Shown here: in pieces, positions 33,989 through 37,730 of the stretch | How positions within the stretch are numbered: position 1 is the stretch's first letter | Layout: each line of letters begins with the position of its first letter | DNA from: Negativicoccus massiliensis | GTDB taxonomy: Bacteria > Bacillota > Negativicutes > Veillonellales > Negativicoccaceae | Reading direction: 5' to 3' | Length of the DNA: 64,000 bases | Assembly: GCA_900155405.1 (NCBI GenBank) | Contig: LT700188.1 | Coordinates: 620,001 to 684,000, forward strand | Translations under genes and position numbers: made by a program | The notes under the pieces: model-generated | The model's database searches: none | Told to the model about the DNA's origin: nothing | What the model saw: only the letters and a program-made list of their open reading frames with translations

Positions 33989-34130
33989 ATGGTTTTTTAT
34001 TTCCAATAGTAAAAGAAGGTATGACGTCAACATGCCAACGCGAACGGAGTTTTACCGACGGCGCGCCGGCGTAAAACGTCATAGTGTGACTTACACTGCG
34101 CGCCATGTTTTGCGACCATATTTCGGCAAC

Positions 34131-34163
34131 AAAAAAAGATGGCGAAAAACCGCCATCTTTTTT
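34131..34163 (-). terminator. Terminator of the first OmpM gene
   Basis: Minus strand GATGGCG, six-base loop, CGCCATC, with A- and T-runs of six to seven, 13 bases after the stop. Nearly the same hairpin follows the second OmpM gene. Confidence 0.9.
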
Positions 34164-34175
34164 ATAGTCACCAAA

Positions 34176-35714
34176 TTAGAATTTGTAGGTCAATTGTACT
34201 TTGGTGAGGTCGTCGAGGTCAGCGCCGTCTTTGGTTTCCGCGCTGAATGTGCGGAGACCTTCGAGTTTAACGTTTTCAGCAACGACTACGCCGAAGCCCG
34301 CTGCCCAGGATTCGGTGTTGTTCAGGTATTTGCCCGTGCGGAGAGCGCCCGAGCCGCCGAGGTAGGAATCCGGTTCCGCGTCAACATAGTCAACGAAGAT
34401 GTTGAAGCTGCCCGGTTTCTTCATGTTCGCATGACCGAAGTCAACGCGAGCGGTCCAGAATTCAGCGTCGTCACGATCTTTCCAACCAACGTTGAAGTAG
34501 TCGCCCGAGAGAGCGAAGTCTTCGTTCAGACCGAAGATCGCGCCCGCGCCCCAGATGTCATCCAAGCCGGCCGAGTCAACTTTGTTGCCGTTCGGAGCGA
34601 TGTAGGTGCCGAGAATGCGGAAGTTGTGGCCGTTGTAACCCAAAGTACCATAGGTCATTTCTACCGACTTCGGATTGTCAAGAAGGTCTTTGTTACCCGC
34701 TACATATTCGTCATATGCAGCTTTCGCTTCTTTGTAGGACGCTTCTACAGAAGCTTTTTGCAACTGAGCATTATCAAATTTTGTCTTAGCATTGGCTTCA
34801 ATAGTTTTAGCTCTGTTCAATGCTTTCTGGTTTGCGTCCGATTCGTCCGCATCATATGCAGCCTGCGCTTTAGCCGTCGCTTTCTGTGCGAATTCATAAG
34901 CGTCTTTCGTCAAAGCAAGGTTATGATCCGCAATTTCATTGGCGTCTTTTGCACCAGCAACCTGAGCCTGAAATTCTTTATATTGAACAGGTTGCGGAAG
35001 TTTCATTTCTTTCGCATAACCGTAGCCGACGGAAGCGGTTACTTCATCGGTCGCTTTGTATTGGAGACGAACGCCGTCGAAAGCGTCATCGTACCAGTAA
35101 CCGGTCGCGCCGAATTTTTCGCCGTAACGACCCGCGGTCAGGTGCAGACCGTCGGTCAGTTCATGGTCAATATACAAGCGGTCGAGATCCAAATCCGGAT
35201 CTTCTTTGTCGCTGTCAAAACCGAAGTTACCCGAGGTAATGCGAGCGGTTGCTGTGGTCTTGTCCGCTACTTTCGCGTTAAACTGGAGGCGAGCACGCAT
35301 ATCGAAGTTGTCGTCATCGCCGTCATCTACCCAGCGAACACGAGCGTCACCGGTCACTTTTACGTTGCCGACGCGGTTTTCCAAGTTGGAAACGCGTACG
35401 CCGAGGCTGTTCAGTTCGTTCGCGAATTCGTCAGCCAAACGGTTCAATTGCGCCTGTTGTTCCGCGTTCAACTGATCCTGTTTCACCATCGCGCGAGCGA
35501 CCATCTGCGCCATTTCATAGCGGGTGATGTTCTGCTGGCCTTTGAATTCTCCATCCGGATATCCTTCGACTACGCCTTCAGCGGCGAGTTGGGATACTGC
35601 CTGGTAAGCCCAGTCGTTCGGAGTTACATCCGAGAACGGATTCGGGGCCGCGAATGCTGTCGTTGCGCCGAGGACGCAAGCAGCTGCCAATACTGTTGCC
35701 AATTTTTTGTTCAT
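34176..35714 (-). CDS. ompM: OmpM-type SLH-domain outer-membrane porin, copy A
   Basis: A 512-residue outer-membrane protein. Signal peptide (about 1-22, ending AFAA); SLH domain (about 24-80, FSDVTPNDWAYQAV to ITRYEMAQMVARAM) that in Negativicutes binds polyaminated peptidoglycan; a periplasmic coiled coil (about 80-115); then a beta-barrel ending in aromatic KVQLTYKF. Between barrel strands lies an Ala/Lys/Asp-rich helical insert (about residues 237-350, bases 34664-35006) unlike that of copy B. It tethers the outer membrane and forms a pore. ATG 35714, ten bases after AAAGGAG. Own promoter, structured leader and terminator. Confidence 0.93.
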   Translation of the reverse strand: MNKKLATVLAAACVLGATTAFAAPNPFSDVTPNDWAYQAVSQLAAEGVVEGYPDGEFKGQQNITRYEMAQMVARAMVKQDQLNAEQQAQLNRLADEFANELNSLGVRVSNLENRVGNVKVTGDARVRWVDDGDDDNFDMRARLQFNAKVADKTTATARITSGNFGFDSDKEDPDLDLDRLYIDHELTDGLHLTAGRYGEKFGATGYWYDDAFDGVRLQYKATDEVTASVGYGYAKEMKLPQPVQYKEFQAQVAGAKDANEIADHNLALTKDAYEFAQKATAKAQAAYDADESDANQKALNRAKTIEANAKTKFDNAQLQKASVEASYKEAKAAYDEYVAGNKDLLDNPKSVEMTYGTLGYNGHNFRILGTYIAPNGNKVDSAGLDDIWGAGAIFGLNEDFALSGDYFNVGWKDRDDAEFWTARVDFGHANMKKPGSFNIFVDYVDAEPDSYLGGSGALRTGKYLNNTESWAAGFGVVVAENVKLEGLRTFSAETKDGADLDDLTKVQLTYKF

Positions 35715-35753
35715 AATTGACACTCTCCTTTGCAAAATGTCGGCAAATTTGTC

Positions 35754-35827
35754 AGAGCGTCATGGTGCGAGTGACCTTGTTTCCTCTACCTTTCGCTCTT
35801 CGGTACACAGTTGCCGTGACTATGTAC
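35754..35827 (-). promoter_or_regulatory. Structured 5' leader of ompM copy A (two hairpins)
   Basis: Hairpin 1 (35827-35803): GTACATAGT pairs with ACTGTGTAC (nine pairs, one U-G), loop CACGGCA. Hairpin 2 (35799-35754): AGAGCG pairs with CGCTCT and encloses a 27-nt core at 35790-35764. The core is GGTAGAGGAAAC then an A then AGGTCACTCGCACC. Copy B has the same core with one change. The element ends about 40 bases before the start codon. Confidence 0.6.
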
Positions 35828-35834
35828 TGGGTTC

Positions 35835-35863
35835 ATTGTAACACCATTAAATTTGAAATGCAA
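35835..35863 (-). promoter_or_regulatory. Promoter of ompM copy A
   Basis: Minus strand TTGCAT (35863-35858), 17-base spacer, TACAAT (35840-35835). It gives a leader of about 115 bases. The stretch 35864-35945 upstream is A+T rich with no gene. Confidence 0.82.
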
Positions 35864-35945
35864 ATACGTAATGAAAAAATTTTATTTCATTTGTATTTTG
35901 ATGAGACAAATTTTCTCATTATCCAATGCGTTTCATTTTTCGCAC

Positions 35946-35977
35946 AAAAAAAGATGGCGGAAAACCGCCATCTTTTT
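35946..35977 (-). terminator. Terminator of the second OmpM gene
   Basis: Minus strand GATGGCGG, AAAA-type loop with TTTT on the other strand, CCGCCATC, then seven T. Eight-bp stem, 17 bases after the stop. Confidence 0.9.
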
Positions 35978-35994
35978 GGATTGCTTTGTTCCGA

Positions 35995-37419
35995 TCAGAA
36001 CTTGTAGGACAATTGTACTTTGGTGAGGTCGTCAAGATCAGCGCCGTCTTTGGTTTCCGCGCTGAATGTGCGGAGACCTTCAAGTTTGACGTTTTCAGCA
36101 ACGACTACGCCGAAGCCCGCGCCCCAGGATTCGGTGTTGTTCAGGTAGCTCGAAGTGCGGAGCGAACCCGTGCCGCCGAAGTACGATCCCTGTTCCGCGT
36201 CAACATAGTCAACGAAGATGTTGAAGCTGCCCGGTTTCTTCAGGTCCGCGTGACCGAAATCAACGCGAGCGTTCCAGAAGTCAGCGTCGTCATGATCTTT
36301 GTAACCGACGTTGAAGTAGTCGCCGGAGAGCGAGAAGTCTTCGTTCAGACCGACAATCGCGCCCGCGCCCCAGATGTCATCCAAGCCGGCCGCGTCCACT
36401 TTGCTGCCGTTCGGAGCGATGTAGGTACCGAGCACGCGGAAGTTGCTGCCGTTGTAGCCCAAAGTACCATAGGTCATTTCCGGACTTTCCAGATCGTTTT
36501 CGCCATTAAACGCCTTGTCTAATGCTTCTTGAGCAAGTTCTACATCATGCGTACGAACTCCCAACATCATGTTGGTTTCGTAAATGGCGTATTGATCACC
36601 GGATGCGACGGCGGCGTCATATTCTTTTTGCGCCTGCGCCAACGCATTTTGCGCCGCTTTCAAATTATCATTCAGCTCTATAACTTGCGGAGCCGCTTTC
36701 AGATCCATGCCTTTCGCGTAGCCGTAGCCGACGGAAGCGGTTACTTCATCGGTCGCTTTGTATTGGAGACGTACGCCGTCGAAAGCGTCATCATACCAGT
36801 AGCCGGTCGCGCCGAATTTTTCGCCGTAACGGCCGCCGGTCAGGTGCAGACCGTCGCTCAGTTCATGGTCAACATACAAGCGGTCGAGATCCAAGTCCGG
36901 ATCTTCTTTGTCGCTGTCAAAACCGAAGTTACCCGAGGTAATGCGAGCGGTTGCTGTGGTCTTGTCCGCTACTTTCGCGTTAAACTGGAGGCGAGCACGC
37001 ATATCGAAGTTGTCGTCATCACCGTCATCTACCCAGCGAACACGAGCGTCACCGGTCATTTTTACGTTGCCGACGCGATCTTCCAAGTTGGAAACGCGTA
37101 CGCCGAGGCTGTTCAGTTCATTCGCGAATTCGTCAGCCAAACGGTTCAATTGCGCCTGCTGTTCCGCGTTCAACTGATCCTGTTTTACCATCGCGCGAGC
37201 GACCATCTGCGCCATTTCATAGCGGGTGATGTTCTGCTGGCCTTTGAATGTTCCGTCCGGGTAGCCTTCGACTACGCCTTCAGCGGCGAGTTGGGATACT
37301 GCCTGGTACGCCCAATCGTTCGGAGTTACATCCGAGAACGGATTCGGGGCCGCGAATGCTGTCGTTGCGCCGAGGACGCAAGCAGCTGCCAATACTGTTG
37401 CCAATTTTTTATTCATCAT
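35995..37419 (-). CDS. ompM: OmpM-type SLH-domain outer-membrane porin, copy B
   Basis: A 474-residue paralogue of the downstream gene. Signal peptide, SLH domain, coiled coil, first barrel strands and C-terminal third are almost the same as copy A, ending KVQLSYKF. The helical insert (about 76 residues, bases 36481-36708) is unrelated in sequence and shorter, with heptad-like NLKAAQNALAQAQKEYDAAV. The start is the first of two ATGs (37419), ten bases after AAAGGAG. High codon regularity and strong control signals suggest abundant expression. Confidence 0.93.
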   Translation of the reverse strand: MMNKKLATVLAAACVLGATTAFAAPNPFSDVTPNDWAYQAVSQLAAEGVVEGYPDGTFKGQQNITRYEMAQMVARAMVKQDQLNAEQQAQLNRLADEFANELNSLGVRVSNLEDRVGNVKMTGDARVRWVDDGDDDNFDMRARLQFNAKVADKTTATARITSGNFGFDSDKEDPDLDLDRLYVDHELSDGLHLTGGRYGEKFGATGYWYDDAFDGVRLQYKATDEVTASVGYGYAKGMDLKAAPQVIELNDNLKAAQNALAQAQKEYDAAVASGDQYAIYETNMMLGVRTHDVELAQEALDKAFNGENDLESPEMTYGTLGYNGSNFRVLGTYIAPNGSKVDAAGLDDIWGAGAIVGLNEDFSLSGDYFNVGYKDHDDADFWNARVDFGHADLKKPGSFNIFVDYVDAEQGSYFGGTGSLRTSSYLNNTESWGAGFGVVVAENVKLEGLRTFSAETKDGADLDDLTKVQLSYKF

Positions 37420-37463
37420 AATTGACACTCTCCTTTGAGTTCAAAATTTCGACAGAAAGTTTT

Positions 37464-37539
37464 CAGAGTGTCGCGGTGCGAGTGACCTGGTTTCCTCTAC
37501 CCTCGACTCTGTCAGCAGCGTCTGCCGTCTCGCTTACTG
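37464..37539 (-). promoter_or_regulatory. Structured 5' leader of ompM copy B (two hairpins)
   Basis: Hairpin 1 (37539-37513): CAG..AGCG pairs with CGCT..CTG around loop AGACGGCAGA. Hairpin 2 (37511-37464): CAGAGT pairs with ACTCTG and encloses the 27-nt core (37501-37475), which is 26/27 identical to copy A. The closing stem differs in sequence from copy A but still pairs. Confidence 0.6.
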
Positions 37540-37546
37540 TGTTTAC

Positions 37547-37575
37547 ATCGTACCATTTGGAAAGCGCGAAATCAA
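37547..37575 (-). promoter_or_regulatory. Promoter of ompM copy B
   Basis: Minus strand TTGATT (37575-37570), 17-base spacer, TACGAT (37552-37547). A TTGACA at about 37637 with a poor -10 might be a second promoter. Nothing else is recognised in 37576-37695. Confidence 0.75.
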
Positions 37576-37695
37576 GCAGTTTACAAGGGTTTTTAGCCAT
37601 TTTGAAAACTTTTAATTTTATTCTAGTACCAATGTCAATTTCTATTTTTACGCTCATTTTTTAATATTTAGCCCGATCCGCCGCGCGGCGCAAAG

Positions 37696-37730
37696 AAAAA
37701 GCCTCTCATCTCGTGACAAGATGAGAGGCT
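37696..37730 (-). terminator. Terminator of the DUF3825 gene
   Basis: Minus strand AGCCTCTCATCT, seven-base loop, AGATGAGAGGCT, then five T. A perfect 12-bp stem. Confidence 0.92.

Follow-up and report, generated by a model that had tools for sequence, protein, structure and literature searches.

A hairpin with the loop of Yfr2 in the mRNA leaders of ompM and other exported-protein genes of diderm Bacillota

Two ompM leaders of one genome contain a common hairpin

The window analyzed here is a 64,000-nt stretch of the 1.36-Mb genome of Negativicoccus massiliensis, a member of the class Negativicutes (contig LT700188.1, positions 620,001 to 684,000). Two ompM genes, whose products combine an S-layer homology (SLH) domain with a porin, lie on its minus strand, each behind a leader that contains a hairpin designated hairpin 2 (Table 1). 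Hairpin 2 is a cis-acting RNA element, in which the loop GAAACNNGGNNA is closed by GAG/CUC and carried on a long stem that drifts in sequence while remaining paired. The same loop is found in the conserved stem-loop of the cyanobacterial small RNA (sRNA) Yfr2. We regard the existence and identity of the element as nearly certain.

An earlier note on this DNA had proposed that both leaders carry the same two hairpins and that the second of these encloses a conserved 27-nt core. The two cores lie and read as described there, and the stems that close them differ in letters while both pair. With up to three mismatches allowed, the core occurs twice in the window and in none of 100 shuffled windows, and these two copies are its sole occurrences in the genome. 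The conserved unit proved to be smaller than the core, consisting of GAG, the 12-nt loop, and CUC. Copy 1 of hairpin 2 folds as written, with an unpaired A at position -4 from the loop, and the stem of copy 2 is partly shifted in the minimum-energy fold.

The proposal of two common hairpins held firmly for hairpin 2 and only weakly for hairpin 1. In copy 1, hairpin 1 is a 9-pair hairpin in the fold; in copy 2, it is missing from the minimum-energy fold of the leader, and the region has a z score of +0.5 relative to shuffled sequences. Hairpin 1 was dropped as a general part of the leader after its mean z scores across four families came to 0.09, 0.03, -1.06, and -1.55. It is conserved locally only, and hairpin 2 alone is the widely conserved element. 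The two-hairpin stretches by themselves have fold z scores of -1.5 (copy 1) and -0.1 (copy 2), neither of which is exceptional, and inclusion of the ribosome-binding site changes these to -2.7 and -0.5. Since the single-sequence folds are unexceptional, the case for a structure is a comparative one.

A promoter-like site, TTTGCA-18-TACAAT with a TG ahead of the -10 box, precedes hairpin 1 of copy 1, and on the strength of this consensus match the transcript of copy 1 would begin at about 35828, just ahead of hairpin 1. The window contains five promoter-like sites of such quality, against 1.8 expected. Other features of the locus include a terminator-like 13-pair hairpin between the two ompM genes (35948-35977) and a weak third hairpin predicted over the ribosome-binding site in both leaders (35719-35741 and 37422-37444). 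A 562-codon open frame on the plus strand (34032-35720), antisense to the first ompM gene, is probably an effect of codon bias and no gene.

Table 1. Positions of the ompM genes and leader features in the window, and of a related hairpin in another genome
Feature	Position	Strand	Basis or remark
ompM gene after copy 1 (SLH domain and porin)	34176..35714	-	PF00395 5.3e-14, PF16930 3.7e-6
ompM gene after copy 2 (SLH domain and porin)	35995..37419	-	PF00395 1.6e-14, PF16930 4e-6
Yfr2-type hairpin (hairpin 2), copy 1, leader of downstream ompM	35754..35799	-	Closing stem AGAGCG/CGCTCT
Yfr2-type hairpin (hairpin 2), copy 2, leader of upstream ompM	37464..37511	-	Closing stem CAGAGT/ACTCTG
12-nt loop of copy 1, GAAACAAGGTCA (consensus GAAACNNGGNNA)	35772..35783	-	Read from the sequence; Yfr2/Cyano-1 loop consensus
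27-nt core, copy 1	35764-35790	-	26/27 identity with copy 2
27-nt core, copy 2	37475..37501	-	Pattern search of window and genome
Hairpin 1, copy 1, at the putative transcript 5' end; conserved locally only	35803..35827	-	Fold
Hairpin 1, copy 2; weak, outside the minimum-energy fold	37513..37539	-	Fold
Promoter-like TTTGCA-18-TACAAT, TG ahead of -10 box	35835..35864	-	Consensus match only
GUG/CAC-closed hairpin ahead of a TonB-dependent receptor gene	L194:2732-2749	-	L194 is a Veillonellaceae metagenome-assembled genome, of the window's own family

The element precedes ompM genes throughout the Negativicutes

OmpM-like proteins were found by protein search (E ≤ 1e-30) in 40 of 40 relatives; Veillonella-, Megasphaera-, Dialister-, and Negativicoccus-like serve as provisional labels of genomes. 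Sixty stretches beside OmpM-like genes, chosen among more than 100 matches, were combined with the two leaders of the window and two from a sister species. The core pattern was present in 49 of these 64 stretches, or 48 without the degenerate L094, which was later set aside. One of the stretches without the pattern (L043) is a contig start that holds no leader of the intended gene.

Thirty-three leaders, taken from 18 genomes of three families with the Megasphaera-like family omitted, served as seeds of a covariance model, R1, whose E values are rough. R1 matched 352 of 380 genomes of the class at E ≤ 0.1, a count that includes the 18 seed genomes, which match by construction; about 38 matches were expected by chance. 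Among the 30 best class loci, 28 lie ahead of SLH (OmpM) genes and 2 lie at contig ends. Homologous hairpins before other ompM genes, for which the earlier note had suggested such a search, are thus present across the class. The omitted Megasphaera-like family was matched as well (16 genomes among the matches listed, E 1.5e-4 to 0.044). Its variant (L082-L085, L089-L092) systematically has a 13-nt loop with one extra base, which probably explains its weaker R1 scores.

In the whole genome of N. massiliensis, R1 finds three copies of the element; copy 1 (E 3.5e-8) and copy 2 (E 4.1e-7) are both seeds and match by construction. A third ompM gene, outside the window (L035, near 456,900), has the element, and a fourth, more distant ompM paralogue (L036, near 1,317,200) does not. 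Some other genomes are likewise split, with certain ompM paralogues carrying the element and others lacking it.

The 84% identity between the two OmpM proteins of the window would suit a remnant of a recent ompM duplication with no RNA function. The flanks diverge, however, while the element persists and its pairing is kept in many families. This explanation is refuted by the arm swaps and covariation described below, and we assign it practically no probability.

One locus shows that the element extends beyond SLH porins. In L194, a hairpin closed by GUG/CAC, as in the Rfam family Cyano-1, lies 80 nt upstream of a TonB-dependent receptor gene (PF00593, E 1.8e-25; L194:483-2651).

The element marks exported-protein mRNAs elsewhere in the phylum

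R1 was run on a draw of 249 genomes from the phylum Bacillota and matched 57 of these genomes at E ≤ 0.01, 49 of them outside the class; about 2.5 would be expected by chance. Thirty-nine out-of-class loci, mostly the best matches, were taken; a 40th locus belongs to the class. The core was recognized by pattern in 36 out-of-class elements. In 35 of the 39 loci, an open reading frame (ORF) with a signal-peptide-like start, as judged by a simple home-made rule, begins within 170 nt downstream, and 14 of these ORFs are SLH-like. The same check at arbitrary points on the opposite strand was positive in 6 of 37 cases.

Sixteen of the non-SLH products were scanned with Pfam. Two (L249 and L259) exceeded the Porin_4 cut-off, two (L254 and L260) gave weak barrel matches below the cut-off, and the other 12 gave no barrel match. 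The non-SLH products that lack a match at the cut-off may nevertheless be outer-membrane barrels. A control search of 149 genomes of Acidobacteria yielded two pattern matches, against three for the reversed pattern. These data establish the element as a mark of exported-protein mRNAs in diderm Bacillota, mostly those of SLH porins, with other likely outer-membrane barrels among the rest.

Pairing of the stem is maintained as its sequence changes

In 41 leaders of the class (near-duplicates dropped), the sequence on either side of the core is not conserved. When the stem arms of these leaders were permuted within families, the mean duplex energy was -13.8 kcal/mol, compared with -20.8 kcal/mol for own arms, and none of 20,000 permutations reached the latter value. 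In 22 leaders, the own 3' arm was the single best partner of all 41. The 36 out-of-class elements gave a similar result (own, -17.9; permuted, -11.4; 0 of 20,000); these elements were found by R1, which favors the six innermost pairs, and the arms tested reach 30 nt.

The three closing pairs were then considered across both phyla, in 57 sequences. The outermost pair is G-C in 52 sequences and A-U in 5, and the next is A-U in 50 and U-A in 7; neither is broken in any sequence. The covariation score was 0.342, against 0.141 for shuffled alignments, none of 500 of which reached it. The selection pattern left both sides of the outermost pair free to vary independently, and the five elements with A-U at this pair are all from outside the class (L271, L278, L280, L281, and L287). 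The seven U-A rows are cyanobacterial and were picked with GTG/CAC fixed, so that they represent two known forms and no unbiased test.

Covariation was thus supported in the set from both phyla and not in a class-only count of 33 leaders, in which the shuffles were not clearly exceeded (score reached by 77 of 500), because the innermost three pairs are invariant there and the outer pairs shift register. RNAalifold found no structure in a MAFFT alignment whose arms were left free; the arms lack sequence conservation, for which reason the arm-swap test was used instead. Compensatory changes that keep the pairing are what distinguishes a structure selected at the RNA level. If unselected, the differences between copies should break pairing no less often than they keep it, and the arm swaps and the absence of broken closing pairs indicate that pairing is kept. 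Class-wide occurrence before ompM, arm swaps, and covariation together strongly support the original proposal of an RNA structure under selection in the leader, its loop conserved while the stems change.

The loop is that of the Yfr2 stem-loop

The Cyano-1 motif (RF01701) has been equated with the Yfr2 family (PMC8400943) and was given by Weinberg et al. in 2010 for marine cyanobacteria only (PMC2864571). Voss et al. described Yfr2 in 2009 as having a conserved 12-nt loop, a long stem, and a bulge at -4; the region between its 5' motif and the loop is unconserved, and a likeness to GGA motifs was remarked (PMC2662882).

Across 40 class leaders, the loop columns read G A A A C N H G G H N A, in which the fixed letters are partly a product of construction. 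The 12-nt consensus GAAACNNGGNNA on a short closing stem is that of Yfr2/Cyano-1, and the loops contained in the primers for Synechocystis Yfr2a, Yfr2b, and Yfr2c (GAAACAAGGAAA, GAAACAAGGAAA, and GAAACATGGCAA; PMC2662882) all fit it. The long unconserved stem of Yfr2 has its counterpart in the arm-swap results, and the -4 bulge is present in copy 1 and not in all relatives.

The Cyano-1 model scores 21.5 bits on copy 1 (35812-35750), below its gathering threshold of 41, and 36.5 bits on the best relative (L040), also below gathering, with loop aligned on loop. Searched against the whole genome up to an E value of 10, it gives a single match, which is the leader of copy 1 (E 0.196). When 20 further class leaders were compared with 4,227 Rfam families, Cyano-1 was the one family to recur, in 6 of the 20 leaders and each time at the core (E 0.31-7.4). 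It was also found in 1 of 20 out-of-class loci and, among 12 earlier sources of which two lack the element, once at E ≤ 1. For comparison, five of eight cyanobacterial loci scanned, those of free Yfr2-type genes, exceed the gathering threshold; the other three are porin leaders.

The earlier note had stated that the leaders match no known riboswitch class. This holds as far as riboswitches are concerned, since Rfam at the gathering threshold finds only rRNA and tRNA in the window, with no match on the leaders, and no riboswitch family appears up to an E value of 5 in 35700-37700; a known match does exist, namely, the Yfr2 (Cyano-1) stem-loop. Extreme conservation of a loop on a covarying stem would also be expected of a minimal aptamer that binds a metabolite or an ion and makes the leader a riboswitch. 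Known aptamers, however, are larger than a 12-nt loop, the stretch from hairpin to start codon has no terminator-like site, and a free sRNA form exists in cyanobacteria. Together with the negative Rfam results, this makes a riboswitch very improbable.

By sequence reading, the Yfr2 5' motif UGUGAGGAG is absent from both leaders of the window, and neither has a terminator-like site between hairpin and start codon, as a free Yfr2 transcript would. Because the scores are below gathering and both 5' motif and terminator are absent, the element is, judged by its sequence, the Yfr2 hairpin in cis and not a Yfr2 sRNA. The same low scores and missing 5' motif would be accounted for if two unrelated hairpins had converged on one loop, perhaps by way of a stable fold. 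Against such convergence, the two hairpins agree in loop positions and length, in having a long stem of free sequence, and, for copy 1, in the adjacent bulge, and both Yfr2 and the element are tied to the control of outer-membrane proteins. We therefore consider convergence improbable and the link to the Yfr2 stem-loop very likely.

A few cyanobacteria carry the hairpin in front of an SLH porin

The exact pattern GAGGAAACNNGGNNACTC gave 18 matches in 17 of 292 cyanobacterial genomes, compared with 3 for the reversed pattern. Five of the 18, in five genomes, lie 77 to 92 nt ahead of the ATG of SLH-porin genes; the other 13 are not porin leaders and all fall inside frames that stay open for 340 codons or more, on either strand. 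One of the five porin loci (L349) has a porin frame that runs on without a stop across the hairpin, so its status as a leader hangs on the choice of start codon; at another (L352), the SLH-porin gene is split in the assembly. A search for SLH porins matched 12 of 88 cyanobacterial genomes, from which 30 loci were fetched. The hairpin was present only at the loci of the same five genes, where composition alone predicts 0.15 occurrences; the majority of the SLH porins in this set are thus without it. The element thus marks an SLH porin in a few cyanobacteria.

Model R2 with strict filters matched 19 of 194 genomes, and the loci viewed were free Yfr2-like genes, porin leaders, and some matches in coding frames. 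Cyano-1 as a porin leader in Prochlorococcus was rejected, since the loci viewed there show a free sRNA ahead of a terminator-like run, and none of the downstream ORFs on view encodes an SLH porin. Among 122 Cyano-1-type pattern matches, 60 have no ORF of 60 codons beginning within 300 nt. The motif UGUGAGGAG lies within 60 nt upstream of 28 of the 122, nearly all in Prochlorococcus, and variants of it occur in others.

A putative docking site and its alternatives

We propose that the hairpin, close to the mRNA 5' end, would act as the docking site of a putative trans-acting factor, which is probably an RNA-binding protein. This factor may set the stability or translation of the mRNA and so place abundant envelope proteins under joint control. 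In cyanobacteria, abundant free Yfr2 would offer this site in trans and so serve the factor as decoy or carrier. We put the chances of this explanation as a whole, a docking site for a trans-acting factor common to the leaders and Yfr2, at about even, and those of docking by a protein at slightly less than that. Hairpin 2 itself does not cover the ribosome-binding site, and an effect on stability or translation appears likelier than attenuation because nothing resembling a terminator separates hairpin and start codon.

The conserved loop positions are interrupted by the variable letters NN, which differ between copies in the same genome in 14 of 28 pairs and 7 of 15 genomes. This favors recognition by a protein, or of shape, over antisense pairing. 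The loop could instead be the pairing site of a trans-encoded sRNA, akin to the control of porin mRNAs by Yfr1. Yfr1 of cyanobacteria pairs with porin mRNAs, which it controls, and also with Yfr2 (Lambrecht et al., 2019; PMC6778093), and outer-membrane proteins are enriched among its predicted targets in Nostoc (PMC6974561). In addition, GAGGAAAC is a contiguous stretch of 8 nt, and TGTGAGGAAAC, present in some class leaders, would pair with the Yfr1 motif. In Yfr2, however, Yfr1 pairs at the 5' motif and not at the loop, and a separate conserved motif is named in the first stem-loop of Yfr2 (PMC6778093). A search limited to the window found five stretches able to pair with GGAAACNNGG, not clearly above the 3.05 expected, and two of these are the opposite strand of the cores. 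Together with the variation of NN within genomes, these findings leave sRNA pairing at the loop a rather improbable reading.

The hairpin could also be a passive 5' stabilizer or ribosome standby structure that needs no specific partner. In the leader of Escherichia coli ompA, a stem-loop near the 5' end slows mRNA decay, and porin mRNAs are expected to be abundant. From the end of the core to the start codon there are 54 and 60 nt in the two window leaders and mostly 40 to 130 nt elsewhere, and the letters of the stem are free to change, both of which would suit such a role. A passive structure has no need of a nearly invariant 12-nt loop that recurs across phyla and is shared with an sRNA, and we consider this explanation unlikely.

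CsrA was tried as the partner of the hairpin. No match to PF02599 was found in any of 40 genomes, including that of N. massiliensis, in a search whose control was positive in 3 of 14 genomes. CsrA is thus an unlikely partner.

Several observations weigh against the proposed docking site and its link to Yfr2. About a quarter of the 64 upstream stretches lack the element, and the NN letters are alike in all copies in 8 of 15 multicopy genomes. Several sequence sets were chosen by pattern, so that letter conservation in them is partly by construction, and a loop of 12 nt is short enough for convergence. The Cyano-1 matches viewed in Bacillota are all below gathering and mostly insignificant singly (E 0.2-1.2 in the window), and the three cyanobacterial porin-leader loci scanned (L347, L349, and L352) are below gathering as well. 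Cyano-1 also matches 10 of 14 control genomes at E ≤ 10, in one of them above the cut-off, for which reason the match in the genome of N. massiliensis counts by its place and not by its score. The cis form is a rarity among cyanobacteria, present in 5 of 292 genomes, which also have SLH-porin loci without the hairpin. Finally, in one Prochlorococcus genome R1 scored highest on a chance match, which lies within an open frame of 463 codons on the opposite strand and outranks the Yfr2 of that genome.

Significance and relation to known systems

Among the papers listed in literature searches on OmpM, Negativicutes, Yfr2, and Cyano-1, which covered few subscription journals, no title or opening of an abstract describes the element outside cyanobacteria, and a paper on OmpM structure (PMC10628300) does not mention untranslated regions, promoters, mRNA, or transcripts. 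The accessible Yfr2 literature names no partner of the Yfr2 stem-loop. The hairpin gives diderm Firmicutes a conserved RNA element on the message for OmpM, their outer-membrane-tethering porin, and ties that element to Yfr2, an abundant sRNA of cyanobacteria. The occurrence of one loop in two phyla points to a shared putative partner that controls outer-membrane proteins, and it bears on the age of such control relative to the outer membrane of the Terrabacteria. A regulon of hairpin and partner may even predate the split of Cyanobacteria and Bacillota and have been kept where the outer membrane was kept, with Yfr2 as a freed decoy and the cis form persisting in diderm Firmicutes; we hold this to be possible and rather doubtful.

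Among known leader structures, the stabilizing stem-loop of the ompA type is similar in its place close to the 5' end of the mRNA for an outer-membrane protein; we know of no conserved loop sequence of this kind for ompA, although we have not searched for one. The GGA hairpins bound by CsrA/RsmA are similar in that they, too, present GGA in the loop of a 5' leader hairpin. They differ in that all three N. massiliensis copies have T or C after the second GG and in that the 12-nt loop is far more constrained. RsmA and RsmE were not found in cyanobacteria (PMC2662882).

The closest likeness is to Yfr2 itself, with which the element shares the 12-nt loop, a 3-bp closing stem, the -4 bulge (copy 1), a long unconserved stem, and the presence of several copies per genome, three here and three in Synechocystis. 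The Yfr1/Yfr2 network also acts on outer-membrane proteins. In contrast to Yfr2, the element lies in the 5' leader of outer-membrane protein mRNAs in another phylum and, by its sequence, is no free sRNA; its closing pairs are GAG/CUC instead of the GUG/CAC of the Cyano-1 consensus, it scores below the Rfam gathering threshold, and the 5' motif and terminator-like site are lacking. An arrangement resembling that of ompM is provided by the actuatons of Synechocystis, in which Yfr2b and Yfr2c are the 5' parts of the slr0199 and sll1477 mRNAs. Those genes do not encode porins, and the neighbors of Yfr2 genes vary among the cyanobacteria compared, whereas the element described here stands before ompM throughout the class.

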